Shown here: positions 7,686-9,908 of the stretch, piece by piece | Numbering within the stretch: position 1 is the first letter of the stretch | Layout: each line of letters begins with the position of its first letter | IMG/VR virus record: IMGVR_UViG_3300032117_000191 | Span: 1-20,191 of that record | From: a virus | Reading direction: 5' to 3' (one strand) | Length of the DNA stretch: 20,191 nt | Made by a program: the position numbers and the translations under genes | The notes under the pieces: model-generated | What the model was told of the DNA's origin: nothing | The model's database searches: none | Seen by the model: only the letters and a program-made list of their open reading frames with translations

Positions 7686-7862
7686 ATGGCAGAAATAGAC
7701 CCAAATGTACTGAAAGAAGTTGCGAAAGAAGCCTTAAAAGAATGGCTAAACGATCAATTTGCTGCCTTTGGTAAGTTTACTTTAGGTGGATTAATGTCCG
7801 CAGCGTTTGCCGGTCTAGTCTATCTTTGGTTGGCCTCGCATGGTTGGGTTATCTCTAAGTAG
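7686..7862 (+). CDS. Small membrane protein at the head of the lysis region
   Basis: A 58-residue protein. Residues 1-24 are charged and helical (K-E-V-A-K-E-A-L-K-E-W-L-N-D). Residues about 31-50 form one hydrophobic helix (L-G-G-L-M-S-A-A-F-A-G-L-V-Y-L-W-L-A), ending in S-H-G-W-V-I-S-K. The K-E-W-L-..-F-A.FGK then TM pattern is known to me from small phage proteins encoded just before lysis genes. It could be a holin, pinholin or antiholin partner, or an unrelated membrane factor. It starts 3 nt after the previous stop. The predicted topology is cytoplasmic N-terminus and one pass. Confidence 0.65.
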   Translation: MAEIDPNVLKEVAKEALKEWLNDQFAAFGKFTLGGLMSAAFAGLVYLWLASHGWVISK

Positions 7863-7891
7863 GTGCAATCATAGATCCTTTTACTTTAGCG

Positions 7892-8365
7892 ATGATGGCT
7901 CTCGGTGCGGTTAAATCGGGAGTTGCTTTTTACAAGGAAGCTAAATCAGTCGGTAAAGAGGCAATTGGGGTTATTACTGAGATCGCAGACGGTCTTGGTT
8001 CTTTTTTTGAACATCAAGAAAAGGCAATTGAGTATGCAAAAGAAATTGAGAAAAACCCGCCTAAAAACAAAAGTCTTCAAGCCATTGCCCTTGACAACGT
8101 ACTTAGACGAAAAAGACTTGAACAAGCCGAGGCAGACCTCAGAACAATGCTTACATGGGAAGCCCCTCCAGAATTAGGATCACTTTGGGCAGACTTCCAA
8201 GAGGAACGATCTAAGCTAATGGCAGACAAGTCTAAGTTTGACAAAGCGCAAAAAAAAAGGACGAACAAGAACGCATACAACTTCAGTCTGATAGAGAAGA
8301 TTTCCAGTTTAAGGTTGCAATTTGTATCGCAGTGCTTGTCTTTACACTCACTTGTTTTAGTTTGA
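7892..8365 (+). CDS. Coiled-coil lysis-region protein, zero-frame product (upstream half of a frameshifted gene)
   Basis: A 157-residue zero-frame product. Residues 1-35 are a hydrophobic-to-amphipathic helix and 36-122 are highly charged coiled coil. The frame stays open upstream to 7859 and reads I-I-D-P-F-T-L-A just before the ATG at 7892. That matches the usual start of this aquatic-phage family, so translation may really begin at the rare codon ATC 7868 or ATA 7871, next to AGGTG at 7861-7865. The ATG at 7892 has no ribosome site. After an A9 run (8250-8258) the zero frame adds only 35 residues of non-family-like sequence, whereas the -1 frame continues with a TM helix and a plausible C-terminus. 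The short form is therefore either a minor product or the non-shifted product. Confidence 0.6.
   Translation: MMALGAVKSGVAFYKEAKSVGKEAIGVITEIADGLGSFFEHQEKAIEYAKEIEKNPPKNKSLQAIALDNVLRRKRLEQAEADLRTMLTWEAPPELGSLWADFQEERSKLMADKSKFDKAQKKRTNKNAYNFSLIEKISSLRLQFVSQCLSLHSLVLV
8250..8260 (+). promoter_or_regulatory. Probable -1 ribosomal frameshift (slippery) site
   Basis: Nine A residues occupy 8250-8258, followed by GG. In the zero frame the codons are CAA AAA AAA AGG, so the A AAA AAA heptamer at 8251-8257 is a classic tandem-slippage site. A -1 slip reads AAA AAA AAG GAC. No strong stem-loop or internal Shine-Dalgarno stimulator is obvious within about 40 nt on either side. Confidence 0.55.
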
Positions 8366-8514
8366 TGTATTACATTCGACAAGATTATCAGGAAAGTCTC
8401 AAAGGGGACAGAGCGCATATTGAGTTTAAAAGAAAATTTCAGGCTAACTCGGTTGAGATGGAATGTTTAAAGATTTTTCAAGAAACAGGATTTCTACCTA
8501 AATACTGCCCATGA
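8257..8514 (+). CDS. -1 frame extension of the coiled-coil protein, with TM helix (frameshift product C-terminus)
   Basis: In the -1 frame the reading continues from AAG at 8257-8259 to TGA at 8512-8514 (85 codons). It gives more charged coiled coil, then a transmembrane helix V-A-I-C-I-A-V-L-V-F-T-L-T-C-F-S-L-M-Y-Y-I, then a basic/acidic tail ending K-I-F-Q-E-T-G-F-L-P-K-Y-C-P. The only in-frame initiators are weak (GTG 8332, inside the TM helix), so it makes most sense as the C-terminal half of the gene starting at 7868-7892. The fused product would be 207 residues from the ATG. Its stop overlaps the holin ATG (ATGA). A homopolymer sequencing error is the alternative explanation, but it would yield the same fused protein. 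Confidence 0.6.
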   Translation, partial: KDEQERIQLQSDREDFQFKVAICIAVLVFTLTCFSLMYYIRQDYQESLKGDRAHIEFKRKFQANSVEMECLKIFQETGFLPKYCP

Positions 8515-8819
8515 TAGGACTGAACCAAACATCTTCTACAAACGACTCTGACGATACAGGGTGGTTAAACTCCAAATGGAGACCTTGTATGGGTTGGATG
8601 TATATGGTTGTCTGTTTCTGTGATTTTGTGATATTTCCGGTGTTTTGGTCACTCGTTCAGATTTACGGTAAGGGGAAGGTTGATGACCAATGGAATCCGT
8701 TGACTTTGCAAGGCGCAGGATTCTTTCACTTGGCAATGGGTGCGGTTCTTGGAATAACCTCATTTGGCAGATCTCAAGAGAAAATGACGGCAATGACTAC
8801 ACCTACAACTTCAAAATGA
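8511..8819 (+). CDS. Phage holin, 3-TM family
   Basis: A 102-residue protein with the pattern of the 3-TM (GTA-type) holins: W-R-P-C-M-G-W-M-Y-M at about 23-32, a hydrophobic helix with F-C-D-F-V-I-F-P-V-F-W, then Q-W-N-P-L-T-L-Q-G-A-G-F-F-H and A-M-G-A-V-L-G-I. Holins collect in the inner membrane and open holes at a set time, releasing endolysin. The ATG overlaps the TGA of the frameshift product (ATGA). No ribosome site lies within 15 nt; the nearest AGGA is 20 nt upstream. An internal ATG at 8588 (residue 27 region) has TGGAG upstream and could give a shorter form. The C-terminus is Thr/Ser-rich and charged, as usual. Confidence 0.85.
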   Translation: MIGLNQTSSTNDSDDTGWLNSKWRPCMGWMYMVVCFCDFVIFPVFWSLVQIYGKGKVDDQWNPLTLQGAGFFHLAMGAVLGITSFGRSQEKMTAMTTPTTSK

Positions 8820-9247
8820 TCTATTACAACCTGATATTTTCACTACTTATAGCTATTCTTTCCGCGGGGGGAGGATGGTATATAGAGCACCTTAGATATG
8901 ATGCTTTAGAAGCTGAGTATCAGGTATTTAAGGATCAAGTTGCTACTAAGGGTGAAATAGCTCAAGAGCAAGTAAAAACCGAAGTTGTAGAGCAAAAATC
9001 AATTACCCAAGGAGTTGTATCAAATGAAAAAGCTAAGTTGGCTCTTGTTGATAGTTATTATGCAGGGTTGCGCATCAAAGCCCCAGGTGATACCGGTAGC
9101 AGTTCAGTGCCCCAAGTTTCCATCTCCTCCAGAGGAATTGATGTCATCCCCAAAGACACAATATCTATTGAACACGATTGCGCCAGTGAAACAGTGAAAT
9201 TGATGGCTTTGCAAGATTGGATTAGACAACAAAGTGAGTTGAAATAA
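8816..9247 (+). CDS. Rz: Rz-like inner-membrane spanin
   Basis: A 143-residue protein. I place the start at ATG 8816, which overlaps the holin stop (ATGA), because the N-terminal helix then begins at once. An upstream in-frame start would lie inside the holin gene. Residues 3-17 are a signal-anchor helix; 20-75 are a charged coiled coil with E-A-E-Y and Q-E-Q-V-K-T-E. The end has the L-Q-D-W-I-R-Q-Q motif typical of Rz proteins. The i-spanin spans the periplasm and joins the lipoprotein o-spanin, encoded inside it in another frame, to fuse the two membranes at the last step of lysis. Confidence 0.82.
   Translation: MIYYNLIFSLLIAILSAGGGWYIEHLRYDALEAEYQVFKDQVATKGEIAQEQVKTEVVEQKSITQGVVSNEKAKLALVDSYYAGLRIKAPGDTGSSSVPQVSISSRGIDVIPKDTISIEHDCASETVKLMALQDWIRQQSELK
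9024..9197 (+). CDS. Rz1: Rz1-like outer-membrane lipoprotein spanin, nested inside Rz
   Basis: A 57-residue ORF lies entirely within the Rz gene in a different frame. It starts at ATG 9024, with AAGGAG at 9009-9014 about 9 nt upstream. Residues 4-13 are hydrophobic and lead to a lipobox-like M-Q-G-C with the lipid-bearing Cys at position 16; Gln at -2 is unusual. The mature part is short and Pro-rich (K-P-Q-V-I-P, K-F-P-S-P-P), as in Rz1. The partner is the i-spanin encoded around it. The nested arrangement and signal peptide together make the call strong despite little sequence conservation in this family. Confidence 0.8.
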   Translation: MKKLSWLLLIVIMQGCASKPQVIPVAVQCPKFPSPPEELMSSPKTQYLLNTIAPVKQ

Positions 9248-9696
9248 TGGAATATTCAAAAGACGGATTAAAGCTGACCGAACGATTTGAAGGATGTAGG
9301 CTTGAAGCCTACCCTGATCCTGGAACTGGTGGTGATCCTTGGACAATTGGTTATGGTCACACAGGAAAAGATGTATTTCAATCCCTTGTAATAACTCAAG
9401 AATACGCTGAAAAACTGCTCTTAGAGGACGTTCAGAAGGCAGTAGCTAATGTCAATGCTCACCTTAAAATAGAAGTCACACAAGAGGAATTTGACGCATT
9501 GGTGGACTTTGCTTTTAACTGTGGTTGCGGTAACTTGGATAGCTCTACTTTACTTAAAAAAGTAAATGAGGGTGACCATGAAGGCGCAGCAGATGAGTTT
9601 TTGAAATGGGACCGGTCTGGAGGTCATGTTATGGCAGGACTGCTCAAGCGTAGACAAGCGGAGGCAGCGTTATTTTTATCGGATCTATCGAAATGA
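9247..9696 (+). CDS. Endolysin, lysozyme-type muramidase (GH24)
   Basis: A 149-residue enzyme that cuts the MurNAc-GlcNAc bond of peptidoglycan. It has the T4/P22-like E-D-T triad: Glu15 in E-R-F-E-G, Asp24 in A-Y-P-D, and Thr33 in W-T-I-G-Y-G-H-T. The spacing between D and T is three residues longer than in most P22-type forms (insert G-G-D). The rest shows the usual V-D-F-A-F-N-C-G and L-L-K-R-R-Q-A-E signatures. There is no signal peptide or SAR helix at the N-terminus, so it needs holin holes for export. The start overlaps the Rz stop (TAATG). Confidence 0.9.
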   Translation: MEYSKDGLKLTERFEGCRLEAYPDPGTGGDPWTIGYGHTGKDVFQSLVITQEYAEKLLLEDVQKAVANVNAHLKIEVTQEEFDALVDFAFNCGCGNLDSSTLLKKVNEGDHEGAADEFLKWDRSGGHVMAGLLKRRQAEAALFLSDLSK

Positions 9697-9908
9697 ACGA
9701 TATAGCAGATGACGCACATTACACCGAGGAAATGCACAGGGAATCAGCACTGAACGCAATCAGGCAAAGGGAAAAGGCAAAGTACACCGGATTTTGCTTA
9801 ACTTGCAACGATACTGCTTTGCCAAATTCTCAATTTTGCTCTAAAGATTGCCAGGAAGACCAAGAATTAATTATCAGGATTGGTCGAATAAAAGGAAAAG
9901 TAAATTAA
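9693..9908 (+). CDS. Small zinc-finger protein, DksA/TraR-like
   Basis: A 71-residue protein starting with ATGA overlap on the endolysin stop. The N-terminal 30 residues are an acidic/basic helix (A-D-D-A-H-Y-T-E-E). Four cysteines at 35, 38, 49 and 53 form C-x2-C-x10-C-x3-C, a zinc site like that of small phage DksA/TraR-type proteins. Those proteins can bind RNA polymerase through its secondary channel, but the usual acidic fingertip is not certain here, so a generic zinc finger is possible. It is the last gene of the rightward lysis operon; its stop interlocks with that of the opposing operon. Confidence 0.55.
   Translation: MNDIADDAHYTEEMHRESALNAIRQREKAKYTGFCLTCNDTALPNSQFCSKDCQEDQELIIRIGRIKGKVN

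Follow-up and report, generated by a model that had tools for sequence, protein, structure and literature searches.

A conserved run of nine A's and a probable frame switch in a gene just 5' of phage lysis genes

A phage gene lying immediately ahead of a holin carries an uninterrupted run of nine A's (A9), past which its protein appears to continue in the -1 frame: is the frame switched there by design, by which machinery, and for the sake of which product? The window, by which we mean the whole stretch of DNA that was analysed (20,191 nt, IMG/VR record IMGVR_UViG_3300032117_000191), is a 20.2-kb phage contig whose genes for SSB, ERF, NinG, and a P22_Cro-like regulator make up a gene set of the host-polymerase type. 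A preliminary description of this DNA had proposed that a -1 ribosomal frameshift at the run gates the holin, and so the timing of lysis, only frameshifted ribosomes being able to arrive at a holin start that has no Shine-Dalgarno (SD) sequence.

Results

Layout of the gene and of the lysis cassette

The description of the reading frames proved accurate (Table 1). The A9 run is read directly in the gene 5' of the holin; without a slip, translation ends 146 nt before the holin; and the -1 frame stays open through a transmembrane (TM) helix to a TGA that overlaps the holin ATG (8511-8513). The fusion product of the -1 frame has 215 residues, arranged as a helical coiled domain, the TM helix, and then a tail of ~40 residues with two conserved Cys. 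For this protein we found no Pfam family above cut-off, no PDB match, and no convincing PHROG (one weak match to phrog_26862, 1.5e-5). An AlphaFold model of the in-frame protein of one relative, L018 (see below), is all helical and poor (pLDDT 54).

Table 1. Features of the frameshift gene and the lysis cassette (positions in the window)
Feature	Position	Strand	Basis
Shine-Dalgarno-like AAGTAGGTG, 5' of the frameshift gene	7857..7865	+	Sequence; relatives have TAGGAG in this position
Probable non-AUG start, ATC ATA	7868..7873	+	Conserved N-terminal IDPFTLA; homology
0-frame ORF: soluble helical protein with a 35-codon 0-frame tail	7868..8365	+	Stop TGA 8363-8365
A9 slip site, 0-frame codons CAA AAA AAA AGG	8250..8258	+	Read directly; conservation
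-1-frame continuation: charged linker, TM helix, Cys tail	8257..8514	+	Stop TGA 8512-8514; fused-protein query, alignments
TM helix of the -1 product	about 8314-8376	+	Alignments of relatives
Conserved Cys in the -1 tail, EC...PKYC	within 8257..8514	+	Alignments
TGATG: 0-frame stop overlapping a -1-frame ATG; possible stop-start restart	8363..8367	+	Sequence
Holin	8511..8819	+	ATG overlaps -1-frame TGA (ATGA), without SD; PF11351, phrog_3427
Rz-like spanin	8816..9247	+	Overlaps holin stop (ATGA 8816-8819); phrog_2466 2.8e-5, scan from 8819
Phage lysozyme (endolysin)	9247..9696	+	TAATG 9245-9249 overlap with Rz stop; PF00959 1.9e-45
DksA-like zinc-finger protein	9693..9908	+	ATGA 9693-9696 overlap with lysozyme stop; phrog_54 2.2e-9

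The holin matches PF11351 (GTA_holin_3TM) with 26.4 bits against a cut-off of 24.8, over profile positions 62-122 of 123 only, and phrog_3427 at 1.6e-7. Its start had been described as lacking a ribosome-binding site, and the anti-SD duplex at 8511 is indeed +1.8 kcal/mol; the overlaps of the Rz, endolysin, and zinc-finger starts with the preceding stops are likewise as described. An independent holin start at Met27 (8589), which has a good SD (GGAG), was considered and rejected as unconserved, the Arg codon being AGA, AGG, or CGN in relatives. Two types of holin are found behind the same CCATGA overlap, one in L016, L017, and L105 (MKHNEHWF...) and the other in the window, L011, and L033 (MIGLNQTS...). 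Inside the Rz gene, in another frame, a small ORF (9015-9197, MKKLSWLLLIVIMQGCASK...) has the look of an Rz1 lipoprotein of the outer membrane, lipobox included.

At its 5' end the frameshift gene has an annotated-type start, ATG 7892, without an SD, and there is no ATG, GTG, or TTG between the in-frame stop TAA 7856-7858 and that codon. The anti-SD duplex is -5.7 and -6.4 kcal/mol for starts at 7868 and 7871, respectively, versus +0.6 for ATG 7892. The N-terminus IDPFTLA is conserved with only synonymous codon changes, and other clades have ATG or GTG at the aligned position. It is thus probable from these alignments that the true N-terminus lies at 7868/7871, upstream of ATG 7892, with a non-AUG start. 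Among 80 distinct homologous starts, 36 are non-AUG (AUA 23, AUC 10, AUU 3), mostly with an SD ~6-7 nt upstream and with downstream codons that change only synonymously. Such near-cognate starts are kept over several clades (7868-7873 in the window, L204-L216, L050-L081, and others), providing within one gene a rare natural set for the study of non-AUG initiation. Gene callers miss or split this gene, giving it a wrong start and a truncated C-terminus.

Conservation of the run

Relatives were collected from IMG/VR with the fused protein as query; 80 of 121 were taken, nearly all with match lengths of 3n-1. The only search pattern that crosses the junction, QKKKDEQE, would need A10 and so disfavors A9. 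Wider searches added groups down to about 45-50% protein identity and, with duplicates removed, gave 113 distinct loci that have an uninterrupted run at this site, A9 in 111 and A10 in two. The protein continues in the -1 frame after the run in every locus except L018, where A10 joins the frames. The run stands as C-A9-GG in 94 loci, as T-A9-GA (moved by one base) in eight, and as G-A9-GG in six; rarer contexts are G-A9-GT (two loci) and C-A9-GA, C-A10-GA, and C-A10-GG (one each). The C-A10-GA locus has arisen by substitution with the phase unchanged, and C-A10-GG is the context of L018.

An A9 by itself is not rare: shuffles of the AT-rich window lead us to expect ~4 on both strands, and one is seen. 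The significance of the run lies in its conservation across the aligned loci, which excludes a chance A9 in an AT-rich window; outside the site, only five runs of at least nine were found in 574 kb taken from 106 of the loci. As judged from the alignments, an A9 is kept at one place in a family of freshwater phages, in a gene just 5' of the lysis genes.

Relatives with a single-frame gene and no A-run had been named as a finding that would speak against the frameshift. They exist, but are limited to one small group of seven contigs (L153, L154, L157-L161) that share 39-43% identity with the member used as query. In the tree this group is sister to the A9 loci L201 and L202 and falls inside the A9-bearing family, which is most simply read as loss of the run. 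From the known-phage collection we recovered only distant single-frame homologs, the GenBank entries MW202462 and MW202484, and more weakly one in Roseobacter phage CRP-361.

Several individual loci depart from the common pattern. L018 (IMGVR_UViG_3300006108_000480) is nested among A9 relatives and has a natural A10 with the frames joined in one 215-residue ORF. The early-branching L201 and L202 (G-A9-GT) have a 0-frame stop no more than a few codons past the run and a shorter -1 product of 194 aa. In L078 the 0 frame is stopped early, at codon 48, with the A9 intact, possibly an error or decay.

Selection on both frames

Selection was assessed over 42 lineages with <92% nucleotide identity to one another. 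Both Lys codons of the slip site are AAA in 42/42 lineages; at eight other near-invariant Lys columns of the same lineages AAA and AAG are mixed. Synonymous diversity at the site is 0.27-0.35 of expectation, a drop that occurs nowhere else nearby. Over codons 2-23 past the site, the 0 frame contains no stop, versus 34.6 expected from codon usage, a count that comes from related and so not independent lineages, with contributions from several positions that have different residues. The control frame past the site has 74 stops (86.8 expected), and the 0 frame further downstream has 45 (35.5 expected). Beyond the site, the 0-frame tail shows only this avoidance of stops and no reduction in synonymous diversity, which rules out a conserved tail sequence.

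Taken together, the conservation of the A9, the invariant AAA codons, and the avoidance of 0-frame stops make it very probable that both frames are used and that the gene yields two products, one soluble and made in the 0 frame, the other made in the -1 frame and bearing a TM helix and a Cys tail. Against this reading, L201 and L202 stop almost at once after the run, and one group has no run. A homopolymer run and a non-canonical start might also suggest an error of sequencing or assembly, or a pseudogene in decay; however, the same run length recurs in >100 contigs from many independent metagenomes and both frames are under purifying constraint. We therefore reject error and decay for the family on the strength of its conservation, and for the window we give them almost no weight. 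Perhaps both a soluble and a membrane-bound form are needed, the protein acting as a regulator of the holin or of an envelope step.

Polymerase or ribosomal slippage

The site is an A run of at least nine inside a coding region, its length is conserved in homologs, and it joins separate ORFs, in-frame homologs being limited to the seven-contig group and one A10 contig. All of these are features of transcriptional slippage. A run of nine A or T allows efficient slippage of bacterial polymerase in vivo (PMC5009743), and for Baranov et al. the sign of purposeful slippage is that all homologs keep one run length (PMC1088944). We also count the host-polymerase-type gene set of the contig on this side.

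The run is at the same time a ribosomal slippery heptamer, A_AAA_AAA, which counts against polymerase slippage. The lineages compared have the heptamer in the right phase, and the next codon is AGG in 40/42 of them, which could slow ribosomes; bacterial genes make use of A-rich heptamers, and some frameshift genes have no known stimulator (PMC4066793). The fusion could accordingly be made by -1 ribosomal frameshifting alone, with no part played by RNA polymerase. We looked for the elements that might stimulate such a shift. For simple, pseudoknot-free 60-nt structures, there is no excess of folding in 31 lineages (|mean z| ~0.6 or less versus codon-shuffled controls), and downstream of the site the mean z lies between -0.4 and 0.5. 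Upstream, the mean anti-SD energy is ~-1 kcal/mol at 0-16 nt from the site, and values of -5 or below occur 5' of the site in only 0-3 of 32 lineages. Both a conserved RNA stimulator and an upstream SD stimulator were rejected on these scans. Furthermore, seven A's would suffice for a ribosomal slip, yet there are nine everywhere, even in loci whose run is shifted by one base (T-A9-GA, L204-L216) or flanked differently (G-A9-GT, L201/L202), although the amino-acid constraint Q/E-K-K-K accounts for part of the first and the ninth A.

Since there is neither a downstream structure nor an upstream SD and since the number of A's is constant, we infer that polymerase slippage is favored over slipping by the ribosome. 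It is probably the main mechanism of the frame switch, and a purely ribosomal origin of the fusion seems to us rather doubtful. The preliminary description was thus borne out as to the site of the frame switch, which is conserved, but not as to its ribosomal mechanism.

Under polymerase slippage, the host RNA polymerase would add one A while copying the A9, and the resulting A10 mRNA would be translated in the ordinary way; a -1 slip of ribosomes on A_AAA_AAA may add to this. Unchanged transcripts or in-frame ribosomes would give the soluble helical protein, and frame-changed transcripts or ribosomes the 215-residue protein with its C-terminal TM helix and short Cys tail. Selection would then act to hold the anchored and the soluble protein, made at the head of the lysis operon, in a fixed ratio, perhaps one that tunes the membrane or lysis machinery. 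If polymerase slippage is correct, phages would have here an A9 slippage gene of unusual conservation, and its natural variants (shifted run, A10, no run) are suited to tests of the mechanism.

Is the run kept for the holin?

In the branch of the window, the -1-frame stop overlaps the ATG of an SD-less holin, so that translation of the holin is probably coupled to ribosomes completing the -1 frame. This SD-less ATGA overlap is present in 13 of 110 distinct loci, all within that branch and with two holin types behind it, and the whole cassette (8511-9908) is stop/start overlapped. There is also a precedent for such gating in Shigella, where slippage in spa13 extends translation into the spa32 start and strongly affects spa32 expression (PMC5009743). 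However, the other 97 loci are arranged otherwise and still keep the A9. Four of them (L139-L142) have the ATGA overlap but with an SD, and most other groups have an SD before the next start, of about -6 to -9 kcal/mol where measured (weaker, -3.6, in L037). Moreover, the next gene varies: It may encode a PF11351 holin or a phrog_1544 protein for which membrane segments are predicted, it may be Rz-like (L104), or it may have no assignment. Because the next gene is of several kinds and mostly has its own SD while the A9 persists, the A9 is not kept for the holin, and gating was rejected as the reason for its conservation.

Even within the branch of the window, the claim that only frameshifted ribosomes arrive at the holin is unsafe. 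In 13/13 of the loci without an SD, an ATG in the -1 frame shares bases with the 0-frame stop (TGATG or TAATG), so that unslipped ribosomes might by-pass the frameshift and reach the holin; the gate may leak or may not exist. The proposal that the frameshift sets holin supply and lysis timing thus retains its overlap and its missing SD but loses its exclusiveness and most of the family, and we consider it unlikely.

The same overlap raises another possibility, that ribosomes which have not slipped terminate at TGA 8363-8365, enter the -1 frame by restarting at ATG 8365, and translate as far as 8514. All ribosomes could then feed the holin, and the frameshift would set the TM isoform alone. TGATG or TAATG occurs at a Leu-Met pair in 38/39 lineages that have the Leu, and in all 13 SD-less loci; stops at this place number 39 versus 25.5 expected. 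Set against this, the 0 frame of roughly half the lineages has already ended upstream, leaving the overlap unused there by unslipped ribosomes, and there is no SD near 8365; a relay of this kind is, in our judgment, improbable. The Leu-Met pair belongs to the TM helix and is encoded by TTG, TTA, CTG, or CTA followed by ATG in 38/39 Leu lineages, the Leu codon thus ending in A or G before Met. The overlap at this pair is present also in lineages with an earlier 0-frame stop.

A more far-reaching scheme for the branch of the window would have lysis metered by a near-cognate AUA/AUC start, A9 slippage, and an SD-less restart on one mRNA, the error rate of the host polymerase setting the supply of holin. 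We regard this scheme as speculative and quite improbable.

Discussion

We found no earlier report of the frameshift gene in the open-licence literature, and within that literature both the family and the very even way in which phages conserve it appear to be new. They place a deeply conserved recoding gene first in the lysis operon of a common freshwater phage group. Programmed slippage that gives two C-terminal variants is itself already known, from dnaX, IS elements, and spa13/spa32.

Two phage systems offer partial parallels. Lambda gpG/gpGT (PMC5009743) likewise yields a short and a frameshifted long product from one phage gene, but it is a tail assembly (chaperone) gene, and its site and mechanism differ from those described here. 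For the MS2 lysis gene, to judge from reference titles in PMC5009743, frameshift-gated lysis was once proposed, and activation was later ascribed to translation termination at the overlapping upstream gene. MS2 is an RNA phage, and its lysis gene has no homology to the present gene; its history nevertheless counsels caution over the gating claim.

Closer likenesses are found among bacterial slippage genes. Thermus thermophilus dnaX (PMC1088944; PMC5009743) also has an A9 on the sense strand, makes two products, and needs no ribosomal stimulator; its long product, however, is in frame, whereas that of the phage gene needs a change of frame (except in L018, with A10). In IS elements, a conserved A9 between orfA and orfB (PMC1088944) is, as here, a homopolymer of constant length that joins two ORFs, in that case of a transposase rather than a phage lysis-operon gene. 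In Shigella spa13/spa32 (PMC5009743), slippage extends the upstream product in the other frame and overlaps the next start, as in the phage gene, and it affects expression of the next gene. The genes and the biology are otherwise different: Here the extension is a TM helix, the A9 is conserved, and the next gene is a holin in part of the family.
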